Origin: Chloroflexota bacterium
Lineage (GTDB): Bacteria; Chloroflexota; UBA11872; VXOZ01
NCBI GenBank assembly: GCA_028874195.1
Contig: JAPPLM010000057.1
Location: forward strand, 1 to 62,994
DNA: 62,994 nt
Direction: 5' to 3'
The notes beneath the pieces are model-generated. The model saw only the letters and a program-made list of their open reading frames with translations. It did no database searches and was not told the origin of the DNA. Position 1 is the first letter of the stretch, and each line of letters starts with the position of its first letter. Made by a program: the position numbers and the translations under genes. Positions 15,373-56,844 of the stretch are shown here, piece after piece.

Positions 15373-16137
15373 ATGAGGAACATCCAGGCATCCACGCGCA
15401 GGACGAACCTGCGTCCACACCGTCAGGACAACGGTCGGCTGGCTCTCTACAGCCATACCCTTTCCTGCATCTCCAAGTTAGAGATCTTTGCGGAGCTCTT
15501 GCCCCACGAAATCAGCGAGATCGATCATGCGAGCGCGACCGTAAAGATCGGCAAGGGCGGAGTGATCTACGCGCAGGAAGAGAGCCGCGAGGTGCTCTTT
15601 CTCATCAAAGAAGGCCGTGTCCAGCTCTACCGCATTTCGTTTGAAGGGCGCAAGCTTGTGCTGGCTATGCTCGGGCCGGATATGTTCTTTGGCGAGATGC
15701 CGCTCTTTGGGCAGGCTATGGGTGATTCGGTGGCTCAAGCCGTGGACGACACGACGCTATGCACGCTCGGACGTGCCGAAGTGGAGCGAATTCTGGTGAC
15801 TTATCCCCGGATCGGCCTGCGCCTTATTCAGGTGCTCAACGAGCGGCTTCAGGATGCTGAGGAGCGCCTGCATGAGAGCGCGTTCATGACGATGCCTGCC
15901 CGCACTGCCGCGCTGATCTTGCGCCTCGCGGAGGATTCCGATGAAGTGCACGGCCTTACCCACCAGGACTTGGCGGACATGCTCGGTGTCTATCGTGAAA
16001 CCGTGACTGCGACACTGGACAAGCTGAAGCATGACGATCTGCTGGAGATCGGCCGCAAGCGGATTACATTGACCAATCGCTCCGCTCTCGAAGACCTCGT
16101 ACAGGGTTCTGCAAGCACCCCATTGCAAGGAGAGTAA
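15373..16137 (+). CDS. Crp/Fnr-family transcription regulator
   Basis: A 254-residue regulator: cyclic-nucleotide-binding-like beta-roll at about residues 35-150 (GGVIYAQEE, LFLIKEGRVQLYR, GPDMFFGEMPLFGQ), a long dimerisation helix and a C-terminal winged helix (LTHQDLADMLGVYRETVTATLDKL in two helices). There is no N-terminal Fnr cysteine cluster and the GEMPLF stretch lacks the full cAMP-contact set, so the effector is unknown. The DUF3179 lipoprotein gene starts 5 bases after its stop, making the pair an operon. The first 25 residues are not family-like and a later start is possible. Confidence 0.85.
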   Translation: MRNIQASTRRTNLRPHRQDNGRLALYSHTLSCISKLEIFAELLPHEISEIDHASATVKIGKGGVIYAQEESREVLFLIKEGRVQLYRISFEGRKLVLAMLGPDMFFGEMPLFGQAMGDSVAQAVDDTTLCTLGRAEVERILVTYPRIGLRLIQVLNERLQDAEERLHESAFMTMPARTAALILRLAEDSDEVHGLTHQDLADMLGVYRETVTATLDKLKHDDLLEIGRKRITLTNRSALEDLVQGSASTPLQGE

Positions 16138-42832: not shown

Positions 42833-44308
42833 TTAGGGAGAGTTCGCCAGTTTGCCGGCTTCTTCAAAGGCAGCCTGCGCCCATTCGACGGCACCAGCGG
42901 GATAAATGCCGAGCACGAGCGTGCCAATCATGCCAATGGCGACTACGGCACCAATGGCGGTGGAAGCGGGCACAGGCAGCAGGCGGGGCTGAATGTCTAC
43001 CATGTACATGTTCACGACCACCCGCAGATAGTAGTAGGCCGAGACCGTGCTCGTGAGCACGAGGACTACCGCCACCCACGTCAGGCCGCCGTTGACGGCC
43101 ACTTGCAACAGATAGAGCTTCCCAAAGAATCCCGCCGCGGGCGGTATGCCGGTGAGGGAGATCATAAACACCGCCATAGCGACGGCCATGAGAGGCGAAC
43201 TGCGACCGAGGTTTTGGAAGTTCTCCAAGTCCGTGCCGCCGGTGCGGCGCTCGACCGCGAACGTCACGGCGAAAGCGCCCAGCGTCATCAGGGCATACAC
43301 CACAGCGTAGAACATCACGGCGGCCACCGCGTCCCGCATGAGACCGCCTGCCTCCGAGTGGGCGTGCACGACCGCGATGCCCACCAACATGTAGCCGGTA
43401 TGCGCGATGGAGGAGTACGCCAGCAGGCGCTTCACGTCTTGCTGCCAGATGGCGACAAAGTTGCCGACGATCATGCTGGCTACCGCAATGGCGATCACAA
43501 TGGGCATGACCATGTCTTGCCACGGTTCAAGTCCGTGTACGACCACCCGGAGAAGGCCCGCCATGGCGCCAATCTTGGCGCCGGCTGCCAAGAAGGCGGT
43601 GGAAGGCGTGGGCGCTCCCTGGTAGGCGTCCGGCGTCCACATGTGGAAGGGCACTGCCGCCACTTTGAACGCCAGGCCGACGAGGAGCAGGCCGAGGCCC
43701 AGCAAGAACCAAGGATTATCCGCACCTTGGCTCTGGACGTACAACGCTATATTCGCGAGATTCGTCGTGCCGGTCAGCCCAAAGAGCCAAGCGATGCCGT
43801 AAAGCAGAACGCCGGAGGCAAACGCGCCCAGCAGGAAGTACTTGAGAGCGCCTTCCGTAGCACGAAAACGGTCGCGCTTGATGGCCACGAGCACATAAAC
43901 AGGAATAGACGTAAGCTCAACGCCGAGATAGAGCGTAATCAGATCGCCCGTAGCGCCCAGCAGAAGCATGCCGACCGTCGCAAAGAGTATGAGCGCCGAC
44001 AGTTCAGCGAATGGGACCTCACTGGACTGAGCATACGCGAGCACAATGCTGAGCGCGGCAATTGCGATGAAGAGCACCTTGAAGAAGACCGCATAACCGT
44101 CGGTCAGCACCATGCCGCCGAAAGCGGTACCGCTGTCTGCGCGTAAGACCACACTGACGAGAATTGCGACAACACTGCCTGCCACAATCAGCCCCAACAA
44201 CCCGCGGTGGGTCCGCCTGCCGCCAAAGGCGTCCACCATAAGAACGGCGGCAGCGATCAAGGTAATGATGATTTCCGGCAGTATGCTTGTGAGATCTTCT
44301 GGTTGCAC
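42833..44308 (-). CDS. nuoN: NADH-quinone oxidoreductase subunit N
   Basis: A 491-residue antiporter-like membrane subunit of complex I with about 14 helices. LYLGVELTSIPVYVL, VAIKRDRFRATEGALKYFLLGAFASGVLLYG (with the conserved Glu and Lys), MWTPDAYQGAPTPSTAFLA and DVKRLLAYSSIAHTGYML match NuoN. These charged residues form a proton channel. Last gene of the nuo operon, 36 bases after nuoM. Confidence 0.96.
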   Translation of the reverse strand: MQPEDLTSILPEIIITLIAAAVLMVDAFGGRRTHRGLLGLIVAGSVVAILVSVVLRADSGTAFGGMVLTDGYAVFFKVLFIAIAALSIVLAYAQSSEVPFAELSALILFATVGMLLLGATGDLITLYLGVELTSIPVYVLVAIKRDRFRATEGALKYFLLGAFASGVLLYGIAWLFGLTGTTNLANIALYVQSQGADNPWFLLGLGLLLVGLAFKVAAVPFHMWTPDAYQGAPTPSTAFLAAGAKIGAMAGLLRVVVHGLEPWQDMVMPIVIAIAVASMIVGNFVAIWQQDVKRLLAYSSIAHTGYMLVGIAVVHAHSEAGGLMRDAVAAVMFYAVVYALMTLGAFAVTFAVERRTGGTDLENFQNLGRSSPLMAVAMAVFMISLTGIPPAAGFFGKLYLLQVAVNGGLTWVAVVLVLTSTVSAYYYLRVVVNMYMVDIQPRLLPVPASTAIGAVVAIGMIGTLVLGIYPAGAVEWAQAAFEEAGKLANSP

Positions 44309-44344
44309 GGGCTATTCCTTACACATGCCCCTAAGTACTGAAGG

Positions 44345-45850
44345 CTAGCGAATCACAGCGCTCGACACCCCGGATTCCGCTAAGCCTTGCATGATTCCGC
44401 TAGTGTCGGCGGTAAAGAGTTCAACGAACATCTGTGGCTGCACACCTGCCCATATCACCACCACTGCCAGGGCCACGAGCACCGCTGCTTCCAGCCTATT
44501 CAGGTCCTCGAGGCGGCCGTGCGCATCTTTCAAGGTGCCGAGCATGACCCGCCAGTACATCCACAGCATGTACGCCGCGGAAAGTATGATACCGAGCACT
44601 GCGAGCACGCCAAAGATGCGCGTTCCTGTCATGAAGGCGCCAAGCAGTACCATGAACTCGCCCACAAAGCCCGACAACCCCGGCAAGCCGATGGAGGCGA
44701 GGGAGAAGAAGAGCAAGAGCGTGGCATACACCGGCCAGCGGTGCGCCAATCCGCCCAGGTTCGCTATCAGCCGGTCGTGCGTGCGCTCATAGAGCTGCCC
44801 CACACACAGGAAGAGAGCGCCGGTTACCAGGCCGTGGCTGAACATCTGCATGATGGCCCCGTCGAGGCCCTGCTGCGTGAAGGAGAAAATGCCCAGGGTT
44901 ACGAAACCCATGTGGCTTACCGATGAGTAGGCAATGAGTTTCTTTAGGTCCGTTTGCATGAGAGCGACCAACGCGCCATAGAGAATCGCAATGACCGATA
45001 GGACAAGGATTGCCGTCTGCGCCAATTCGCTGGCATCGGGAAAGAGCGGCAGGCTGAAGCGAATGAAGCCGTAGCCGCCCATCTTGAGCAAGATTCCGGC
45101 CAGGATGACGCTTCCGGTCGTCGGCGCCTCCACATGGGCATCCGGCAGCCATGTGTGGAAGGGAATCATCGGCACCTTGATCGCAAAGGCAAGGAAGAAC
45201 GCCAGGAAGGCCCAAAGCTGGAAGCGCTCGCCATACGTGCCCTGAGTGAGCTCAAGAATGTCGAACGTATACACGCCCGTCGTATTGCCGTGCACGAAGT
45301 AGAGCGCCAGAATGGCGACGAGCATGAGGAGACTGCCGAAGAGCGTGTAGAGAACGAACTTGACCGTTGCGTACACACGGCGCTCGCCACCCCATACCCC
45401 GATCAGCACGTACATGGGGATGAGCATGACTTCCCAGAACACGTAGAACAGGACGAAGTCCAAAGCAAGGAACACACCGGTTATGCCCACTTCCAGAATG
45501 AGCATGGTGAAGAGGTACTCTTTCACGCGCTCGTGTACCGAGGCCCAGGCATAGACGATGCAAAGGAAGAAGAGGAACGTATTCAGGAGCACCATGAGCA
45601 GGCTGATGCCGTCAACGCCGAGCGCATACTGGATGCCCAGGGCCGGCAGCCAGTCGAACGTCTCTCGAAACTGCATGCCGGCGCCGGATTCGAAGCTCAC
45701 CCACACGGCCACACTCAACACGAGCGAGAGCAGAGTACCCGCGAGCGACACGGCGAACATGGCGCGGCGCTCAGGCAGGAAGAGCACGATTACGGCCGCG
45801 ACGAGCGGCAACCAGAGAATGAGTGAAAGAATGGGGATTGAATCCACCAA
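44345..45850 (-). CDS. nuoM: NADH-quinone oxidoreductase subunit M
   Basis: A 501-residue antiporter-like membrane subunit. DFVLFYVFWEVMLIPMYVLIGVWGGERR contains the conserved Glu, and IKVPMIPFHTWLPDAHVEAPTTGSVILAGILLKMGGYG and TDLKKLIAYSSVSHMGFV contain the conserved Lys and His. It is one of three proton-pumping subunits of the membrane arm. Seven bases separate it from nuoL. Confidence 0.97.
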   Translation of the reverse strand: MVDSIPILSLILWLPLVAAVIVLFLPERRAMFAVSLAGTLLSLVLSVAVWVSFESGAGMQFRETFDWLPALGIQYALGVDGISLLMVLLNTFLFFLCIVYAWASVHERVKEYLFTMLILEVGITGVFLALDFVLFYVFWEVMLIPMYVLIGVWGGERRVYATVKFVLYTLFGSLLMLVAILALYFVHGNTTGVYTFDILELTQGTYGERFQLWAFLAFFLAFAIKVPMIPFHTWLPDAHVEAPTTGSVILAGILLKMGGYGFIRFSLPLFPDASELAQTAILVLSVIAILYGALVALMQTDLKKLIAYSSVSHMGFVTLGIFSFTQQGLDGAIMQMFSHGLVTGALFLCVGQLYERTHDRLIANLGGLAHRWPVYATLLLFFSLASIGLPGLSGFVGEFMVLLGAFMTGTRIFGVLAVLGIILSAAYMLWMYWRVMLGTLKDAHGRLEDLNRLEAAVLVALAVVVIWAGVQPQMFVELFTADTSGIMQGLAESGVSSAVIR

Positions 45851-45857
45851 TGCTACC

Positions 45858-47765
45858 TCAACGCACCATTATGATGTAGAAGGCGAGCACGAGCGCCGTA
45901 CCCAAGACGACGCTGAAGGCATAGTTTTCCAAGCGGCCGGTCTGCATACGCCGGAGACCGCCTCCCACGCCGCTGACAACCAAGCCAATGAGGTTCACTA
46001 GGCCGTCCACGATGTTCAGGTCGAACCAGGCAAAGAGCCAACCCACGCCACGGGTTCCCCCTGCCAGGACCGTATCGTAGAAGTCATCGAGAAAGTACTT
46101 GTTGACCAATAGCGTATGGAGGGGCCGCACCCTGCCGGCGACGGCCTCGGGAGCGGGCAATCCGCGCATGTATACGCTATAGGCAATGAGAATGCCGAAG
46201 AGCGCAATAAGAGTCGAGACGGCCATTACGCCAAGCACAAACGTCGTAGACGGTTTATGGACTAAACCGGCTAACTCTGCCGCGATGAACGTATCGTGTA
46301 GGTAGTTGTGGATAAGCCCGTGCTCAGGCGGGACACCGACAAACCCCGCAAGCGCCGCTCCTACTGCCAAGACGATGAGGGGTAGGGTCATCACATGCGG
46401 GGACTCGTGAACGTGTGAGAACCGCTCGGTTTCCATGCGGGTCTTGCCAAAGAAGGTCAGAAATATCATGCGGAACGTGTAAACGGCCGTAAGGAACGAT
46501 GCCAACGCGCCCAAGGCGTAGAGGAGATAGCCCATCCCGCCGGCAAGCAGCGTGGCTCCAAGCAGCTCGTCCTTACTCCAGAATCCCGCTAAGGGGATGA
46601 TGCCGGAGAGCGCCAGACCGCCAATGATGTACGTTGAGCCGGTAACCGGCATCTTGCCAAACAGCCCGCCCATGCGCTGCATGTCCTGCTCTTCGTTGGT
46701 GCCGTGAATCACGGAACCGGAGCCAAGGAAGAGCAGACCTTTGAAGAAGGCATGGGTAGCGAGATGGAAGATGGCGGCGGCGAACGCGCCGACGCCGAGA
46801 GCCATGAACATCAAACCGAGTTGGCTGACGGTGGAGTACGCGAGGACACGCTTGATGTCGTTTTGCGCGAGGCCGATGGTCGCCGCAAAGAGGGCCGTAA
46901 ACGCGCCGACGATCGCTACGACCACCATAGCGTTTGGTGTCAGCACATAGAGCGGATTGAACCTTGCTACCATGTAGACACCCGCCGTCACCATCGTGGC
47001 CGCATGGATCAGAGCGCTGACCGGCGTTGGGCCCTCCATCGCGTCGGGCAGCCACACGTGCAGCGGGAACTGCGCCGACTTGCCCATGGCGCCCACAAAG
47101 AGCAGGAGACAGATGACCGTGAGCATGCCCGGTGTCGCGGCTGCAATGGCCGGAGCCTGCGCGAAGATTTCGTCGTAGTCTAACGTTCCGAAGACATACC
47201 ACGCCAAAAGAAGCCCAATCAGAAAGCCGACGTCGCCTATGCGGTTCGTCAAGAAGGCCTTAATCGCTGCCGCGGACGCCGACTGACGCTCGAACCAGAA
47301 CCCAATCAAAAGGTAGGAGCATAAGCCGACGGCTTCCCAGAAGACAAACAAGACCAGCAGGTTGTTTGCCATCACGAGCATGATCATCGCAAAGACAAAC
47401 AGCGGCAGATAGGTGAAGAACCGCCAGAAGCCGGGATCGTGGTCCATGTAGCCTATCGAATAGACATGGACCATGAAGGAAACGCTCGTGACTACGAGCA
47501 GCATCACAAGGGTGAGGGCATCCACACGCAGCGCGATATCCAGTGCAAAATCACCGGAGACTGCCCATGTCCAAAGCGTGACTGATTGCGGTTCCGCATG
47601 GTCCAACTGGGTGATGAACAAGGCCACACTGACGACAAGCGCGCCCAGCACGCCGGCGTTCGCGACGAGGCCGGTATGCTTCTTCAGGTACTTGCGGCCA
47701 AAGACGCCGTTTATCGCGAAAGCGACGAAGGGCAGAAGCGGTATGAGCCAGGCAACGTCGGCCAT
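45858..47765 (-). CDS. nuoL: NADH-quinone oxidoreductase subunit L
   Basis: A 635-residue antiporter-like subunit with the C-terminal lateral helix expected in NuoL. FWEAVGLCSYLLIGFW, GKSAQFPLHVWLPDAMEGPTPVSALIHAATMVTAGVY and NDIKRVLAYSTVSQLGLM are diagnostic, each with the charged residues of the proton path. It is slightly longer than the E. coli protein and ends in a helix after a linker of about 60 residues. It starts 16 bases after nuoK. Confidence 0.97.
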   Translation of the reverse strand: MADVAWLIPLLPFVAFAINGVFGRKYLKKHTGLVANAGVLGALVVSVALFITQLDHAEPQSVTLWTWAVSGDFALDIALRVDALTLVMLLVVTSVSFMVHVYSIGYMDHDPGFWRFFTYLPLFVFAMIMLVMANNLLVLFVFWEAVGLCSYLLIGFWFERQSASAAAIKAFLTNRIGDVGFLIGLLLAWYVFGTLDYDEIFAQAPAIAAATPGMLTVICLLLFVGAMGKSAQFPLHVWLPDAMEGPTPVSALIHAATMVTAGVYMVARFNPLYVLTPNAMVVVAIVGAFTALFAATIGLAQNDIKRVLAYSTVSQLGLMFMALGVGAFAAAIFHLATHAFFKGLLFLGSGSVIHGTNEEQDMQRMGGLFGKMPVTGSTYIIGGLALSGIIPLAGFWSKDELLGATLLAGGMGYLLYALGALASFLTAVYTFRMIFLTFFGKTRMETERFSHVHESPHVMTLPLIVLAVGAALAGFVGVPPEHGLIHNYLHDTFIAAELAGLVHKPSTTFVLGVMAVSTLIALFGILIAYSVYMRGLPAPEAVAGRVRPLHTLLVNKYFLDDFYDTVLAGGTRGVGWLFAWFDLNIVDGLVNLIGLVVSGVGGGLRRMQTGRLENYAFSVVLGTALVLAFYIIMVR

Positions 47766-47780
47766 TATCTCTGTGTGCCT

Positions 47781-48089
47781 TTAGCCTTTGAGTGTGTTGA
47801 TTTCATCTACGTTGAGCGTATCCCGATGGCGCGACAGCGCCACAATGATAGCCAGCCCAACCGCAGCCTCGGCCGCGGCTACCGTTAGCGAGAATATGAC
47901 GAAGGCTTGCCCCAGCATATTGTCCAGTGCCACGGCGAACCCGACAAACGTGACGTTGGCTCCCAGCAAAATAAGCTCAATTGACATAAACACAATAAGC
48001 AAGTTGCGCCGCACCAGCACACCGAGCAAGCCGATGATGAAGAGAGCCGCGCCCAGCACCAAGTAGTACTCTAAGGCTGGGATTATCAT
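47781..48089 (-). CDS. nuoK: NADH-quinone oxidoreductase subunit K
   Basis: A 102-residue three-helix subunit. VRRNLLIVFMSIELILLGANVTFV contains the conserved membrane Glu, and FVIFSLTVAAAEAAVGLAIIVAL the second. Length and order match NuoK exactly. Located between nuoJ and nuoL. Confidence 0.96.
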   Translation of the reverse strand: MIIPALEYYLVLGAALFIIGLLGVLVRRNLLIVFMSIELILLGANVTFVGFAVALDNMLGQAFVIFSLTVAAAEAAVGLAIIVALSRHRDTLNVDEINTLKG

Positions 48090-48112
48090 CTCAGTCGCCT
48101 ATCTCCTCAGCG

Positions 48113-48730
48113 CTACTTGGCCGTTTGTTGCTTCTGCACGTTTGCCTTCTCGTACCGCTCTTCCATCCACTCTGACACCCCCATCTCCGAAGATGAGCGC
48201 GGCCGTCTCGGCTTCTGACGTGCCAGGACGATGGCGCCAACGACAGCGGCAGTCAAGAGAACCGAGGCCACTTCAAAGGGAAGCAAGTAGTCGCGGAAAA
48301 GCACCTGCCCGAGCGCCTGTACGTTCCCGCCCTGTCCGGCGACCCATGCGGGCGAATGAGGACCTTGGGCACCGATGGTGATGGTGGCTCCGGTGAGGAC
48401 TATGAACTCCAGAAAGAGGATGGCGCCAATCACAATCGCGAGCGGCGCTTGCACGTGAAACTGCCGCACGCGCTCCACCGCGCCGATATTGAGCAGCATC
48501 ATGGTGAAGAGGAAGAGTACGATGATGGCGCCGGCATAGATGATTATGTGCGCTGCGGCGAGGAACTCAGCGCGCAGCAGGATGAAGATTCCCGCAAGGT
48601 GGAACACAACACCCACGAGCGCCAGCGCGCACTGGACCGGATTGCGCAGCATAATGACAAGCACGGCGAACACCACGCTTGCCAGCGCGAAATACGCGAA
48701 AATCAGGGTAAGCAAGGTCTCGCTAGTCAA
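48113..48730 (-). CDS. nuoJ: NADH-quinone oxidoreductase subunit J
   Basis: A 205-residue membrane subunit with five helices. MLRNPVQCALALVGVVFHLAGIFILL, LAAAHIIIYAGAIIVLFLFTMMLL (with the pi-bulge YAGAI) and a C-terminal helix near 160-180 are typical. A charged tail of about 30 residues follows. It overlaps the end of nuoI by 8 bases, so translation is coupled. Confidence 0.95.
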   Translation of the reverse strand: MTSETLLTLIFAYFALASVVFAVLVIMLRNPVQCALALVGVVFHLAGIFILLRAEFLAAAHIIIYAGAIIVLFLFTMMLLNIGAVERVRQFHVQAPLAIVIGAILFLEFIVLTGATITIGAQGPHSPAWVAGQGGNVQALGQVLFRDYLLPFEVASVLLTAAVVGAIVLARQKPRRPRSSSEMGVSEWMEERYEKANVQKQQTAK

Positions 48731-49181
48731 GCGTTGAGACCTCCTTGCCCTGCTTATCCACCAAGTCCATCAAGCGGTCTACGTCATAGATGAGCGTGCT
48801 ACGATCGTCCGTCGAGAAGTCAAATGCGTCAGTCATCTCCAAGGCTTCAACCGGGCATGCTTCCACACAGAGGCTGCAAAAGAGACAGCGGCCGACATCC
48901 AGCGTGTAAGAGGTCACCACTTTTTCCGTCGGCTGGGCCGGATTCGATTCCGTTGTTATGGTGATGCATTCATTCGGGCACGCCGTCTCGCAAAGACCGC
49001 AGCCCACGCACTTTGGCCGTCCGTCCGGTCGCCGGCGCATGCCCACGGCGCCGCGATAGATCGCAGAGAGAGGTCGTTTCTGCTCCGGATAGCGGATGGT
49101 GACCGGCTGTCGAAAGAACTCCCGGAGGGTTACACTGAGCCCTTTCGCAATCGGCAGCAGCGAGTCAAACCGAAAACTCAT
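48723..49181 (-). CDS. nuoI: NADH-quinone oxidoreductase subunit I
   Basis: A 152-residue ferredoxin-like subunit with two CxxCxxCxxxCP motifs, CVGCGLCETACP and CLFCSLCVEACP, binding clusters N6a and N6b that carry electrons to N2. RPLSAIYRGAVGMRRRPDGRPKCVGC is family-typical. The open frame extends about 115 codons upstream through nuoH, but ATG 49181 begins the conserved protein and GGGAGAGAG precedes it. A C-terminal extension of about 30 residues follows the second motif. Confidence 0.95.
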   Translation of the reverse strand: MSFRFDSLLPIAKGLSVTLREFFRQPVTIRYPEQKRPLSAIYRGAVGMRRRPDGRPKCVGCGLCETACPNECITITTESNPAQPTEKVVTSYTLDVGRCLFCSLCVEACPVEALEMTDAFDFSTDDRSTLIYDVDRLMDLVDKQGKEVSTLD

Positions 49182-49204
49182 TACACTCTCTCCCAACTTT
49201 TCTC

Positions 49205-50224
49205 CTAAGCGTACACCGTCAGCTTCAGCACTGTGGCGACTGCCAGGTTGAGCAGTCCCAGCGGCAAGAGCACTTTCCAACAAAAGTTCATCATTTGGTC
49301 GTAGCGAAATCGCGGTAACGTGGCCCGAATCCAAAAATAGATGAACAGAAAAAGGAAGACCTTGGACATCATGATGCCAACAGCCAGCAAGGTTGTGAAG
49401 AAATGCCCGATATATGGCTCCAGAAACTGCGCCGGCCACCCGCCACCCAAGAAGACCGCGCTCACCAAGAAAGACGCCAAGAGCATGTTGGCGTATTCGG
49501 ACAAGAAGAAGAATGAAAACCGCCAACCGGAATACTCGACGTGATACCCGGAGACGAGCTCGGTTTCCGCTTCCGGCAGGTCAAACGGCGCGCGGTTTGT
49601 TTCCGCTAGCGCGGCACAAACAAAGACAAACGCGCCAATGACCAACGGTATGGCGAAAGGTACCTGCTGCTGCCGCACGATTTCAGGCAGGGAAAGCGAT
49701 CCCGCAAGGACTACCACGCCGACGAGCGCTATACCAAGCATGATCTCATAGCTGATCATCTGTGCACTCGACCGCAGGCTTCCCAACAGGGCATATTTGC
49801 TATTCGACGCCCAGCCGGCCATGACTATGCCGTACACCGCCACAGACGTAAGCGCCACAATGTAAAGCACGCCCACGTTCAGATCGGTGGCATAGAGACC
49901 GATGACCCGCCCGAAGATGTGGAGCTCGGTGCCAACCGGCACCACCGACCACGCCATAAAGGACGGCACCAAGAGCAGGAACGGGGCCAGAATGAAAAGA
50001 ACGCGGTCCGCTCCGGCCGGGATCATGTCTTCTTTACCAAGAAGCTTTACGGCATCAGCCAACGTTTGAAAGACGCCAAAAGGCCCGACGCGATTCGGGC
50101 CGACGCGAGACTGAATGCGACCCAATATACGCCGCTCGCCCCAGATGAGGGGAGGCACCATGAGCAACGGCACCGCAAAGGCAATGATGGATTTGAAGAT
50201 GACCGCGATGACAAATTCTGTCAT
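49205..50224 (-). CDS. nuoH: NADH-quinone oxidoreductase subunit H
   Basis: A 339-residue membrane subunit at the quinone-entry site, with eight helices. ERRILGRIQSRVGPNRVGPFGVFQTLADAVKLLGKEDMIP, ETNRAPFDLPEAETELVSGYHVEYSG and FIYFWIRATLPRFRYDQMM are highly conserved. Its ATG overlaps the nuoG stop by 4 bases. Confidence 0.97.
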   Translation of the reverse strand: MTEFVIAVIFKSIIAFAVPLLMVPPLIWGERRILGRIQSRVGPNRVGPFGVFQTLADAVKLLGKEDMIPAGADRVLFILAPFLLLVPSFMAWSVVPVGTELHIFGRVIGLYATDLNVGVLYIVALTSVAVYGIVMAGWASNSKYALLGSLRSSAQMISYEIMLGIALVGVVVLAGSLSLPEIVRQQQVPFAIPLVIGAFVFVCAALAETNRAPFDLPEAETELVSGYHVEYSGWRFSFFFLSEYANMLLASFLVSAVFLGGGWPAQFLEPYIGHFFTTLLAVGIMMSKVFLFLFIYFWIRATLPRFRYDQMMNFCWKVLLPLGLLNLAVATVLKLTVYA

Positions 50225-52782
50225 GGCTCATTCCTAGCTCGCGGCTGCGCCGAGCCAACCTCGGATGCTGCAGCAGCAGCACGTACTGATACCGCAACAG
50301 TGGCCTCCGCGCCCAGCAACGCTCCCACCGGCGCATCCGGGAAGCCAACGGGAAGATAGACTACATCTTCCGGCAAACGGCTGTTGGCTTTGGCCGTAAC
50401 GGTCACGTCCGTTCCGTTTGCCTGGATCCCCACTTTCTCGCCGTCAGTCACGCCAAGGTGCTCGAGCTGCGCCGGGTGCAATTCGGCAACCGGCTCCTCC
50501 ACCAAACGGCGTAGGTTGCTGCTGTAGCGGCCGGTAACGCCGGGCACGAAGAGGTGATCTTGCGTCACTAAGAGCAGTTTGCCGTCACCATTCACGCTTG
50601 GCAGCACCGGCAGCTCGTGCCAACCGAAACGCGGCGCGCTGTGGGTCGTTGGGATCTCTGCCAGCACCGCGGCAATCTCTTGCGCTACAGAGTCCGAATT
50701 CCTATAGGCCCACCGTGCGCCAAGCTTGAGTGCGAGTTCAGTGAAAATCTGCCAATCGGCTTTCGCTTCGCCAACGGGTGGAATTGCCGCCTGCGCCCGC
50801 TGCGCGCGGCCTTCCAGATTTGTGAACGTACCGGTCTTTTCGGTAAAACTGACCGCGGGCAATACAACGTCGGCGTGCTCCGCCGCTGTGCTATTCACAA
50901 AGAGGTCCTGCACCACCACGAAGCCCGCCCGATTAAGGAGTGCTTGGGCCTGCTGGTGGTTGCGGGCGGTCGTTGCCACGTCTTCTCCGATAACGTAGAG
51001 GACGGAGACATCAGCGTCGGACAAGAGATCGTCAAGCGTGAGTCCCTGAGATTCGGGCAGCACCACGTCCCAAAGCTTGCCCAATGCGCTGCGGGCTTGA
51101 GCGTCATCACCGCTGCGGAAATTCGGCAAGATGTCCGCTCCCGCCCCCATTTGCACGAGGCCGCGGGAGTTTGCCTTGGCGGCGAGCGGGAAGAGTTGGG
51201 CATCCGGCAAGGCCAGCGCAAGATTGGCCGCCGCTTGCGCAAAGCCCACGGCGCTTCCGATCAGCCAGTTGCCGAGCGCCCACACGATTCCGACGCTGCC
51301 AGCCTGGGCGAGTTGCGCGGCGGTCTCGCTCAATTCTGCCGGTTCGATTCCGGTATCGGCGGCGGCAGTCTCCAGATCGTAGCCGTGTAACTCCTCCGGT
51401 GCACCGCCGTTACCAGACTGGCGAGAGAGTTCGGCTGCAAGTCCCTGGACAAGGTGCTCCTCCGTTCCCGGTCGCACGCGCAGTACACGTTGGGCGAAGC
51501 GGCTATCCTGCCTGCTCGGCAGACTGCTGACCTGAATAAGCGCTTTGCCCTGGTCGCGCACCCACTGCCGCATCCGCATGCCGAGCACGTCGTGGCTTTC
51601 CATAATGTCACCACCCACGACCAAGAAGGCATCCATGTGTTGCATTTGGGCAATGCTGAAATCAAAGGCGGCGGGACCTAATGTCTTGAGCGTGGGAATA
51701 AACGTCCAACGCTCAGTGCTATCGATATTGTTGGTGCCGACCACCTCTCGCATGAGACGCGATACCAGATAGTTTTCTTCATCGCTCAAACGCCCGGACG
51801 TAATGGCTGCGATTGCATCCGGACCGTGCTGGGACTTTGCCCCGGCGATTTGTTCTGCCACCAAGGTAAGCGCTTCATCCCAGCTTGCCGGTTCCAGCGC
51901 GCCGTTCCGGCGTATGAGCGGCTGCTTCACGCGCCCGTCGTCATGAATGTAGTCGTAGCCAAAGCGGCCGCGCGTGCAGAGCATGCCGTCCCCGGGACCC
52001 CGGTCGCGTGTGTTGACCGGCGTTTGGTCACGGAGTGCGGGATTCGCTTTCGTGCGCAACACTTCGCCCATGCGCGTCTCGACGTGCATCTGGCAGCCGA
52101 CACTGCAATGGTTGCAGATTGACTCGCTTTGGTGCACTTGCCACGCCCGTCCGCTATGCATGAATGGGCGGCTCAGCAAAGCGCCAACGGGGCACACTTC
52201 GATACATTCACCGCACTCGACGCAGTCCAGCGGCTCGTCGAACTGTGTCCCAATGTAGCTGTGAAACCCGCGAAGGTTGAAGGTAAGCGCACTATCCCCA
52301 ACGCGTTCGTCGCAGATGCGCACGCACTTGCCGCAGTAGATGCAGCGATTTGGGTCCCACTCGATCAGAGGACTGAATTCATGGTCGGGCTCGTTTGGAT
52401 TGTCGCTGCCCAACTTGCTGCGGTACACCCCTACTTCGTAGGCAGTGTGCTGCAGATCGCAGACACCGGACTTGTCGCAATAGGGGCAATCCAGCGGGTG
52501 ATGCTGCAGGGTCATTTCCATGATGCCCTGCTGGGCATGCACCACGGGTTCGGTCTTCGTGCTCACCACCATGCCGTCCATGGCCAGAGTATTGCACGAA
52601 GAGAGCGGCTTTGGCGCACGCTCTACTTCCACCACGCACATGCGGCACGCGCCGTAGGGCTTGAGAAAGGTATCGAAGCATAGGGTAGGTATGTAGGTGC
52701 CAAGCTTGCGCGCGGCATCGAGGATCGTCGAGCCTTCGGGTACCGTTACTTCTTGACCGTCAACCGTAAGCGTTACAGGCAT
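50221..52782 (-). CDS. nuoG: NADH-quinone oxidoreductase subunit G
   Basis: An 853-residue peripheral-arm subunit. The N-terminal [2Fe-2S] domain has Cys35, Cys46, Cys49 and a fourth in SSCNT; HHPLDCPYCDKSGVCDLQ holds the His/Cys cluster; CIYCGKCVRICDE and CVECGECIEVCP bind two [4Fe-4S] clusters; CNHCSVGC begins a formate-dehydrogenase-like domain with an N7-type cluster. The large domain continues to about 750 and ends with a small beta-barrel segment. The usual NADH-oxidising partners NuoE and NuoF are absent from the cluster; only 57 bases separate this gene from nuoD. Confidence 0.95.
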   Translation of the reverse strand: MPVTLTVDGQEVTVPEGSTILDAARKLGTYIPTLCFDTFLKPYGACRMCVVEVERAPKPLSSCNTLAMDGMVVSTKTEPVVHAQQGIMEMTLQHHPLDCPYCDKSGVCDLQHTAYEVGVYRSKLGSDNPNEPDHEFSPLIEWDPNRCIYCGKCVRICDERVGDSALTFNLRGFHSYIGTQFDEPLDCVECGECIEVCPVGALLSRPFMHSGRAWQVHQSESICNHCSVGCQMHVETRMGEVLRTKANPALRDQTPVNTRDRGPGDGMLCTRGRFGYDYIHDDGRVKQPLIRRNGALEPASWDEALTLVAEQIAGAKSQHGPDAIAAITSGRLSDEENYLVSRLMREVVGTNNIDSTERWTFIPTLKTLGPAAFDFSIAQMQHMDAFLVVGGDIMESHDVLGMRMRQWVRDQGKALIQVSSLPSRQDSRFAQRVLRVRPGTEEHLVQGLAAELSRQSGNGGAPEELHGYDLETAAADTGIEPAELSETAAQLAQAGSVGIVWALGNWLIGSAVGFAQAAANLALALPDAQLFPLAAKANSRGLVQMGAGADILPNFRSGDDAQARSALGKLWDVVLPESQGLTLDDLLSDADVSVLYVIGEDVATTARNHQQAQALLNRAGFVVVQDLFVNSTAAEHADVVLPAVSFTEKTGTFTNLEGRAQRAQAAIPPVGEAKADWQIFTELALKLGARWAYRNSDSVAQEIAAVLAEIPTTHSAPRFGWHELPVLPSVNGDGKLLLVTQDHLFVPGVTGRYSSNLRRLVEEPVAELHPAQLEHLGVTDGEKVGIQANGTDVTVTAKANSRLPEDVVYLPVGFPDAPVGALLGAEATVAVSVRAAAAASEVGSAQPRARNEP

Positions 52783-52839: not shown

Positions 52840-54045
52840 TCATCGGTCAATCTCACCAAGTATGATGTCAATACTTCCAATTACGGATACAACGTCTGCG
52901 AGCAGCCGACCTTTCACCAAGTAAGGCAAGGACTGCAAATTGACGAACGAGGGCGAACGTACGTGCATACGATACGGTTTGCCGCTGCCGTCGCTGACGA
53001 CGTAGAAGCCCAATTCGCCCTTTGGCGCTTCAATAGCGGCGTAGGTCTCGCCCCGCGGCACCGGGAAGCCGTGGATGTACATCCAGAAATGGTTGATCAT
53101 CGCTTCCATGTCGGTGTAGAGGCGCGGCGTGTCCGGCCGGCCAACACGGGAGTCATCGGTCATCACGGGTCCAGGCGGCATGTGTTGAATCACCTGACGC
53201 ATGATGCGTACGCTTTGGCGCATCTCTTCGAGCCGCAGAATGTAGCGGCTAAAAACGTCGCCCTTACCCGTGCCCGTGGGAATATCGAACTCCACCTTGT
53301 CGTAGGCGGCATACGGTTCAGCCTTGCGGATGTCCCACTCCACCCCCGAGCCACGTAAGCAAGCGCCGGACAACCCCATCGCAATCGCGTCGTCGCCGGA
53401 TATCACGCCCACGTCCACCGTGCGGCCCAACCAAAGATCATTCTTGCTGAGCAACTTATCAAACTGGTTGATTTCCTTGATGAAGTAGTCCAGTGAGCTT
53501 TCAAGCTTTTCGTAGAAGGGTTCGCGGGGTTCCTCCAGGAATCCACCGGGACGCATCACACTGTGGGTCATGCGTGCACCGCAAAGTTCCTCGAAAAGCT
53601 CCAGGACACGTTCGCGCGCGCGGAAGGCATAGAGGAAGACCGACATTGCCCCGATGTCCAGCGCGTGGGTGGCTATCCAGACGAAGTGGCCCGCCAGCCG
53701 TCCCAGTTCACCAACAATGCACCGCAGCCATTGCGCGCGCTCCGGCACCTCAATTCCCGCAAGCGTCTCTACGGCAACCAGCCAGCCAAGATTGCTGGAA
53801 GCGGCCGCGGTGTAATCCATGCGGTCCGTATACCCCAGGATTTGGGTATACGTCTCGCTTTCGGCGATCTTTTCCGTGCCGCGGTGCAGGTAGCCAATGA
53901 TGGGTACGGCTTCCTCGATGTACTCGCCGTCCATCTTGAGGACAACGCGCAGCACGCCATGAGTGCTAGGGTGCTGCGGACCCATGTTCAGGATCAGTCC
54001 TGAATCATCTTCACCGGCAATGCGTTCTATCTCAACAGTCGCCAT
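52840..54045 (-). CDS. nuoD: NADH-quinone oxidoreductase subunit D
   Basis: A 401-residue subunit related to the large subunit of [NiFe] hydrogenase. NMGPQHPSTHGVLR, YLHRGTEKIAE, TQILGYTDRMDYTAAASSNLGW and the C-terminal SLPYLVKGRLLADVVSVIGSIDIILGEIDR are diagnostic. It shapes the quinone-binding cavity with NuoB. Encoded as a separate protein, not fused to NuoC. Confidence 0.97.
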   Translation of the reverse strand: MATVEIERIAGEDDSGLILNMGPQHPSTHGVLRVVLKMDGEYIEEAVPIIGYLHRGTEKIAESETYTQILGYTDRMDYTAAASSNLGWLVAVETLAGIEVPERAQWLRCIVGELGRLAGHFVWIATHALDIGAMSVFLYAFRARERVLELFEELCGARMTHSVMRPGGFLEEPREPFYEKLESSLDYFIKEINQFDKLLSKNDLWLGRTVDVGVISGDDAIAMGLSGACLRGSGVEWDIRKAEPYAAYDKVEFDIPTGTGKGDVFSRYILRLEEMRQSVRIMRQVIQHMPPGPVMTDDSRVGRPDTPRLYTDMEAMINHFWMYIHGFPVPRGETYAAIEAPKGELGFYVVSDGSGKPYRMHVRSPSFVNLQSLPYLVKGRLLADVVSVIGSIDIILGEIDR

Positions 54046-54084: not shown

Positions 54085-54558
54085 CTAAAGTCCCTCGCGC
54101 GGGAAGTCTTTGCGCAAGGGGTGATACTCATAATCTTCATCCATGAGGATGCGCCGCAGATCGGGATGATTGGCGAAGTTTACGCCCATCAGATCGTAGA
54201 CTTCGCGTTCCGGCCAGTCTGCGCCCGGCCAGACCTGCGCCATCGATTCTACCGACTCATGTGCGGCTATTCGCGTTTTGACGCGGATACGCCGATTAGC
54301 GGGGATTGAGCGCAGATGGTAGACGACTTCCAGTTCTTGCGATTCGCCGGGCCAATGGACTGCCGTGACATCACCGAAAAAGTTGAACCTTAGCTCGGGG
54401 TCGTCGCGCAGCGCCGTTGCGACCTCTAACAGGTGCGTGGCGACGATCTCTATGGTCAGGTAGTCGCGGAGAGAGTTTGCGGCAATGACTTTATCGCCTA
54501 AGACGGCTTTCACACGTTCGTGGATCAAATCAGCGGCGACTGGTGGCGGAATGCTCAC
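54085..54558 (-). CDS. nuoC: NADH-quinone oxidoreductase subunit C
   Basis: A 157-residue protein of the 30-kDa complex I subunit family. FNFFGDVTAVHWPG, YHLRSIPANRRIRVK and PEREVYDLMGVNFANHPDLRRILMDEDYEYHPLRKDFP (signature region) identify it. The frame extends upstream into nuoB; GTG at 54558, about 11 bases after AAGGAG, is the best start, giving a gap of 8 bases after nuoB. The start is less certain than the gene. Confidence 0.93.
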   Translation of the reverse strand: MSIPPPVAADLIHERVKAVLGDKVIAANSLRDYLTIEIVATHLLEVATALRDDPELRFNFFGDVTAVHWPGESQELEVVYHLRSIPANRRIRVKTRIAAHESVESMAQVWPGADWPEREVYDLMGVNFANHPDLRRILMDEDYEYHPLRKDFPREGL

Positions 54559-54566
54559 GGAAACAC

Positions 54567-55139
54567 TTACTCCTTGGCGCCCGCATCCGCGCGGGCGGTG
54601 AGCAATGCCTCTTCCGAGCCGGCCCACTCACCCTGCTTGATCTTCTGCTGCAACAGCATGAGACCCTCCAGCAGCGCCTCGGGCCGCGGCGGGCAGCCGG
54701 GCACGTAGATGTCTACCGGAACGGCGAGGTCTACACCCTGAAGCACACTGTAGGAGCGGTACGGCCCGCCGCACGTAGCGCAATTGCCGTGGGCAATCAC
54801 CCAGCATGGCCTGGCCATCTGTTCCCAGAGGTTGCGAATAATAGGTGCCATCTTCTTTGTGACCGTACCCGCCACAATCATGACGTCGCATTGACGAGGT
54901 GTCGCCCGGAACGCCATGCCGAAGCGATCCGCGTCATAGTGTGATGCCCAGACCGCCATCATCTCGATGGCGCAGCACGCGAGGCCGAACGTCATCGGCC
55001 ACAACGCGTTTGCACGCCCCCAGTTCAGGATTTGGTCGGCGGAGGCAAGCACAAAGCCGGAGGCACCCGTCTTTTGCCCGGCGGCGGGCAGCGTAAGCGT
55101 ATCTTCTATAGCCCCCAATCGAATGCTCCTTTCTTCCAT
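54567..55139 (-). CDS. nuoB: NADH-quinone oxidoreductase subunit B
   Basis: A 190-residue Fe-S subunit binding cluster N2. The ligands lie in [19 protein letters not shown] and [38 protein letters not shown] and [23 protein letters not shown] are typical. It overlaps the end of nuoA by 34 bases in a different frame. The C-terminal extension after [13 protein letters not shown] is normal. Confidence 0.97.
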
Positions 55140-55483
55140 GCGTAGACGTAGCCAACGAGCAGGATAGCAATGAAGATTGCCATTTCAACCAGACCAAAGA
55201 GGCCGAGAGACCCTATGATTACGGCCCATGGAAAGAGAAAGGCGAGCTCCAGGTCAAAGACAACGTAGACAATTGCAACCATATAGAAGTGCACCCCGTG
55301 CTTGCCACGGGTGTCGCCCACCACGCCACTTGGGCCAATCCCCGACTCGTAGGGTAACGTGCGGAGGGGGCCGGGGCGAAACTTCGGTCGCAGTACGGAG
55401 GCCAGCGCAAGCGAGCCAATCCCGAATGCGGATGCCGCAACGAAGATCACCAGAAACGGGATGTATCCGACGTAGTATTCCAT
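55106..55483 (-). CDS. nuoA: NADH-quinone oxidoreductase subunit A
   Basis: A 125-residue three-helix membrane subunit. [34 protein letters not shown] (with conserved Asp and Glu) and a closing helix WAxGLL-like region identify it. First nuo gene; 98 bases separate it from the upstream rex gene on the same strand. No strong promoter of its own was found, although TTGTAA and TATAAG occur in the gap with too long a spacer. Confidence 0.95.
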
Positions 55484-55581
55484 CTGCTATCTTCCGGCCC
55501 TCAGCGGTGGCTGTATCAGTCGCGCTCCGGTCTTATAATGGACGAGTTTCTTTTCTTTTACAAATGCGTTCCGTAGGAGCT

Positions 55582-56277: not shown

Positions 56278-56844
56278 TGGCGCTCCTCATGTCAGAGGCA
56301 ATTGCCACGTGAAACATATCACAAGCTCCCGCCGCACGCAACTAATCAATGCCGTTTCCTAGGCGAAATTCTCCGTATTCCAATCCTCCATGCGTTCACG
56401 CATTTCTATTGCCAAATCGGTCGGAATCTGCAGGAAGCACTGCTCGGAGTGCGAGAGATTAGAGAGCACGAAACTCCCGGACCTGGTTCGTTTGGGTTCC
56501 ACACAAGACACAATTCTTTCCTCAACGACGCGCACAGGGTTCTGCGGCAAGACTCCTTACGAGACTATCAGCGAGGTGTTGATTCAGCGCTCGCTGCATT
56601 GATCTTGCGTGTAATGGACAAGACATCGGACCAACGGTGGGACGCGCCCGGCAAGAGTCACGTGTAACTGCTGCCCAGCCTGAGCGAAGCTAAGCCAGTG
56701 AGTCTAGAGTGACGGAATAGGGGAAAGGCGGCGCGAATAGAATGCCGGCAAGGCAAGAGAACGTGCTTGGTCACTGCATCGATGAGTAATCGGATACGCG
56801 TTAGGAACAGCAAGTCTCAATGCGAGTGGGGTGAGCCGGTGCGC
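56278..56844. other. Intergenic region between VanW-family and rex genes
   Basis: About 570 bases. Apart from the Rex-box and the rex promoter at its left end, two short opposing open frames near 56360-56600 have no recognisable homology or ribosome binding sites. No RNA gene recognised. Confidence 0.45.
56307..56324 (-). promoter_or_regulatory. Rex-box-like operator upstream of rex and nuo
   Basis: On the minus strand TTGTGATATGTTTCACGT resembles the Rex operator TTGTGAA-N4-TTCACAA, with complete TTGTGA and TCAC half-cores and mismatches in the last two and one inner base. It overlaps a candidate -10 (TATGTT) that has TTGCGT 17 bases upstream. The site is 30 bases from the rex start, consistent with autoregulation and with control of the rex-nuo transcript. 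Confidence 0.65.

Follow-up and report, generated by a model that had tools for sequence, protein, structure and literature searches.

A predicted Rex operator ahead of a rex-nuo gene row in an uncultured Chloroflexota bacterium

Described Rex systems and the rex gene of this locus

In Streptomyces avermitilis, Rex represses nuo, atp and cyd genes, and the regulon comprises nuoA1-N1, atpIBEFHAGDC, cydA1B1CD and rex-hemAC1DB (PMC5355995). Its binding sites, such as TTGTGATACGGTTCACGA at atpI, were footprinted between and over the -35 and -10 elements (PMC5355995). The Firmicutes operator (TTGTGAAW4TTCACAA in S. aureus) is the same palindrome, read by the same regulator family, as at the locus described here; the Firmicutes targets are mainly fermentation and anaerobic genes (PMC2883068), whereas here they belong to aerobic respiration. 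NAD biosynthesis is a further conserved Rex function (PMC6391272). For the phylum itself, RegPrecise 3.0 includes a Chloroflexi collection of five genomes and refers to the comparative work on Rex by Ravcheev et al. 2012 (PMC3840689); its Chloroflexi regulogs may already contain a predicted Rex-nuo link for Chloroflexota. The wiring of Rex to respiration is already known from Streptomyces, and only its layout in the present lineage is unusual.

The window analyzed here is a stretch of 62,994 nucleotides, contig C3 of a 3.5-Mb Chloroflexota genome that is 98% complete (Table 1). The nearest relatives of this genome that carry names are Chloroflexota MAGs. As in Streptomyces, there is a Rex protein and, overlapping promoter elements, an operator (here a predicted one) of the form TTGTGAAN4TTCACAA. 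The likeness to S. avermitilis extends to autoregulation, to nuo and atp as targets and to sites that are nearly the same (that of atpI, for example), all of it read here from sequence. There are also differences. In S. avermitilis the linked neighbors of rex are hem genes and a separate operator serves nuo, whereas here rex and nuo are linked and the sole box of the locus precedes rex. The oxidase boxes found here are at cox and ctaB.

The product of rex matches Pfam PF06971 (Put_DNA-bind_N) and PF02629 (CoA_binding), scores above the cut-off of the NCBIfam Rex models, and matches the Rex structure 3ikv in the PDB with an E value of 3.9e-46. Both the Rex-type winged-helix N-terminal domain and the Rossmann NAD(H) domain are present, which bears out the identity given to this gene in the original prediction. 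In S. agalactiae Rex, Arg50 and Arg51 contact two operator guanines, and Arg62 is also named (PMC8376106). A hand comparison of the sequences together with an alignment places R52, R53 and R64 of the present protein at these three positions; T. aquaticus Rex has a lysine at the second of them. Judged by its sequence, this is a genuine Rex, in which the base-contacting arginines of the recognition helix and the wing are kept.

Table 1. Features of the rex-nuo locus, and one regulator gene elsewhere in the window
Feature	Position	Strand	Basis or remark
CRP/FNR-family regulator (HTH_Crp_2)	15373-16137		One of two in the genome
Rest of complex I row, read as nuoH, I, J, K, L, M, N	42833-50224	-	nuoI ferredoxin domains in Pfam; others by order and ORF sequence
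nuoG	50221-52782	-	Directly after nuoD; no nuoE or nuoF between
nuoD	52840-54045	-	PF00346
nuoC	54085-54627	-	PF00329; true start probably downstream of ORF start
nuoB	54567-55139	-	PF01058; overlaps nuoA end
nuoA	55106-55483	-	PF00507
rex-nuoA gap, 98 bp	55484-55581	-	Neither Rex box (≤2 mismatches) nor terminator-like site found
Candidate separate nuoA promoter, TTGTAA-N17-CATTAT	55535-55563	-	TTG-N17-CATTAT in 6/6 genus genomes
rex, NADH/NAD+-responsive repressor, 231 aa	55582-56277	-	Pfam, NCBIfam and PDB matches
Likely ribosome-binding sequence, GAGGAG	56283-56288	-	Before rex; GAGGAGCGCCA invariant in genus
Predicted Rex operator, TTGTGATATGTTTCACGT	56307-56324	-	30-47 nt upstream of rex ATG; matrix score and genus conservation
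Candidate -10 of rex promoter, TATGTT	56313-56318	-	Inside Rex box; preceded by TGA (extended -10)
Candidate -35 of rex promoter, TTGCGT	56336-56341	-	TTGCGY 17 nt from -10 in 6/6 genomes; weak consensus match

The operator and the rex promoter

The original prediction had recognized the half-cores of a Rex operator in 18 bases just before rex and over a candidate -10 element. Read from the window on the minus strand (56324-56307), these bases are TTGTGATATGTTTCACGT. They differ from TTGTGA-N6-TCACAA at two of the 12 arm bases, both in the right arm, and from the full TTGTGAAN4TTCACAA at three. The half-sites are TTGTGAT and ACGTGAA, each with its GTG core. With T at position 7 and GT at the end, the box is less symmetric than most sites of the class.

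Such a match is unremarkable by itself. At up to three mismatches, the full consensus occurs at 80 places in the 3.5-Mb genome, compared to 49 for a reversed control pattern, so that consensus matching alone is too weak a criterion genome-wide and a palindrome arising by chance has to be considered. A matrix was therefore built from 19 sites of relatives in the class, located near nuoA, cox, atp and ctaB and excluding the site under study. These sites had been picked for likeness to the consensus, and the matrix measures how well a site fits the class motif rather than testing that motif as such. The operator scores 18.5 bits on this matrix, the highest value in the 63-kb window (the runner-up has 13.3 bits), and no site in 3 Mb of first-order random sequence scores as high. 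Only five other sites reach this score in 181 kb of the same genome, a portion chosen partly for its consensus matches. The footprinted S. avermitilis sites give 18.1 to 22.6 bits on the same matrix, with 18.3 for nuoA1 and 18.1 for atpI. The score is therefore well separated from the background, at which level the original prediction would have failed.

The site is also conserved. Six genomes of the genus, in which Rex identity falls as low as 79%, share 17 of the 18 operator bases without variation, and the box keeps a constant distance to the ATG; farther upstream, only 18 of 181 ungapped columns are invariant. A GTTGCG block just upstream of the box is invariant as well, and the pattern TTGCGY-N17-TATNTT is kept in 6/6 genomes, with TATNTT located within the box. 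A strict promoter scan of the rex 5′ region lists no promoter, and for this reason the putative rex promoter is graded as plausible but weak. The box covers the -10 of this conserved, weak promoter-like pair, as had been predicted.

The same bases could in principle have been kept as promoter bases rather than as an operator. However, the invariant block spans both arms of the palindrome and extends past the -10, and analogous boxes are found at functionally coherent genes (see below). Matrix rank, exact placement 5′ to rex and conservation in the genus together place the site beyond chance, and we regard a fortuitous palindrome or a pure promoter constraint as extremely improbable. The 18 bases are, on this sequence evidence, very probably a Rex operator.

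A site for a regulator of the CRP/FNR family (TGTGA-N6-TCACA) has an overlapping motif core, and the genome encodes two HTH_Crp_2 proteins, one of them in the window. Several observations argue for Rex instead. The class sites favor A at position 7 and T at position 12, which is the Rex form, and the box is at rex itself. Moreover, in the few genomes compared, the boxes follow Rex. Seven genomes with Rex have 4-15 boxes at up to two mismatches, compared to 0-4 for the control pattern. One genome with Rex and no HTH_Crp_2 match above the cut-off (G021) has six boxes against one, whereas another (G024, 96% complete) that has an HTH_Crp_2 match above the cut-off and lacks Rex stays at background, with two against one, and its cox and atp loci are without a box. 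A CRP site was rejected on motif form and on this co-occurrence, the latter drawn from few genomes, and we consider it highly unlikely. The Rex reading of the site is retained below.

Control of nuo from the rex promoter

As originally described, nuoABCD follow rex in the same direction after 98 bases: rex runs from 56277 to 55582, and the start of nuoA is at 55483. In the mechanism that we favor, Rex would repress its own promoter through the 18-mer as operator, and rex would head a rex-nuoABCDG(H-N) unit. At low NADH, a Rex dimer holding NAD+ would sit on the box and cover the -10, keeping RNA polymerase off. When NADH rises, Rex would be released and rex transcribed, and transcription would continue through the 98-bp gap into the genes for the membrane and quinone-reducing part of complex I. 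The cell would thus probably switch on the rex-nuo row when NADH builds up, and respiratory capacity would follow NADH through Rex boxes at nuo, cox, ctaB and atp. The sequences show the Rex protein, the site with its conservation and its position over a conserved promoter-like pair, similar boxes at other genes and, on few genomes, that boxes go with Rex; we infer the binding, the repression, the release by NADH and the read-through into nuo. As a whole explanation, with the operator governing nuo in the genus by read-through, we consider it reasonably likely.

The gap between rex and nuoA bears on the last of these steps. Throughout the genus it is without a Rex box at up to two mismatches, and a search for a terminator-like site found none. 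It does hold TTG-N17-CATTAT in 6/6 genus genomes, within otherwise variable sequence, and this element may be a separate, box-free promoter of nuoA. The box could then control rex alone, by autoregulation, with nuoA transcribed from its own promoter in the gap. Against this possibility, nuoA has a box in three sister families (f2, f4 and f5), and loss of control in this one genus would be odd with a box kept upstream of the linked rex; nor was a terminator-like site found in the gap. Both promoters may act together. We consider exclusive transcription of nuoA from its own promoter unlikely, and transcription of nuo may come by read-through from rex, from its own promoter or from both. The sequence TTGTAAA in the gap was also considered as a decayed Rex half-site, which is possible, but its reading as a -35 element is simpler.

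The claim of a single operator for the rex-nuo unit therefore stands in part. The operator, its overlap with a promoter, the order of rex and nuo, and nuo as a recurrent target in the class all agree with it. The shared transcript is unproven because the gap holds the conserved, box-free promoter-like element.

A second part of the original claim, that complex I would be coupled to its own electron donor, needs to be narrowed. The genes of the NADH-oxidizing subunits, nuoF and nuoE, are on another contig (G000:C60:19308-21194; L053:2306-4195), unlinked from the nuo row. No Rex box at up to two mismatches was found in the upstream sequence examined of nuoEF in 30/30 loci of the class, a result that serves as an internal control for the class-wide box search. 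Because nuoE-nuoF on this contig are without a box, coupling to the donor is limited to the NuoABCDGH-N part, and would hold there if the operator governs nuo. How the stoichiometry of complex I is kept with a box-free NuoEF, its NADH-entry part, is a small puzzle.

The gene for a second, NuoE-NuoF-like fusion protein adjoins that of a formate dehydrogenase alpha subunit (G000:C20:43205-46751; L054:3206-6752), and the two proteins probably form an NAD-linked formate dehydrogenase.

Rex boxes at respiratory genes across the class

The position of the box relative to rex and nuoA differs among relatives. In family f2 the order rex-nuoA is kept and the box is between the two genes. For one f2 genus (g3, 12 nuoA loci) it is located 66-81 nt past the rex stop codon and matches at all 12 arm bases; for another (g2, three nuoA loci) it is 8-20 nt past the stop, with one mismatch. 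The 11 nuoA loci of families f4 and f5 have a box about 50 to 190 nt before nuoA, with 1-2 mismatches, and nuoA was not found beside rex in the sequence stretch examined. Another Chloroflexi MAG (L042) has a rex-nuoA pair with the box upstream of rex, as in the genus studied. Predicted Rex boxes thus recur at nuo across the class, in varying positions. An f3 locus in which rex adjoins nuoA (L033) has no box there, and control at the rex-nuoA locus is therefore not universal.

In loci L162-L168 of families f2 and f3, no nuoA was found in the roughly 1.4 kb that precede nuoB, and the nuo operon seems to be split.

These arrangements suggest a scenario that we put forward only tentatively. In the genus, the Rex operator of complex I may have moved from the nuoA promoter, its place in most sister families, to the rex promoter. 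A single autoregulated promoter would then co-induce repressor and complex I, a second promoter at nuoA, free of regulation, would supply a floor, and nuoEF would be outside Rex control class-wide.

Similar boxes are found at other respiratory genes. At cox1 a box is present in 6/6 genus genomes, exact or nearly exact, and cox boxes are also present in 11/11 g3 and 2/2 f4 loci. A box precedes atpI-atpB in 5/5 genus genomes, and atp boxes are found in all f2 loci that are not cut off; atp and cox boxes occur in other families as well. The ctaB gene (heme O synthase by NCBIfam) has a box in 4/4 genus orthologues. The atp and ctaB boxes of the genus, like those at cox1, are exact or nearly exact. 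The same Rex probably controls the aa3 oxidase (cox), ctaB and atp through these predicted sites.

Several further boxes were observed. In f4 and f5, an exact Rex box lies just before an ORF for nadA, quinolinate synthase (L195:2287-2304 and L196:2561-2578). The nuo and atp boxes agree with the S. avermitilis regulon, and those at nadA with the known Rex function in NAD biosynthesis. Three genus genomes have a Rex-like box 24-58 nt before a citramalate synthase gene (L053:17396-17413, L200:2280 and L210:2259), an unusual possible target. In G031, apparent atp genes are preceded by three Rex-like boxes in a stretch of about 320 bp (L204:1994-2317). A site in G021 (L192:2627-2644), TTGTGATATGTTTCACAA, is nearly identical to the rex site of the window, and the next ORF is without a Pfam match.

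For a class of largely uncultured Chloroflexota, these boxes outline a testable respiratory Rex regulon of nuo, cox, ctaB and atp, in which the predicted operator is seen at different places around one conserved pair of regulator and target.
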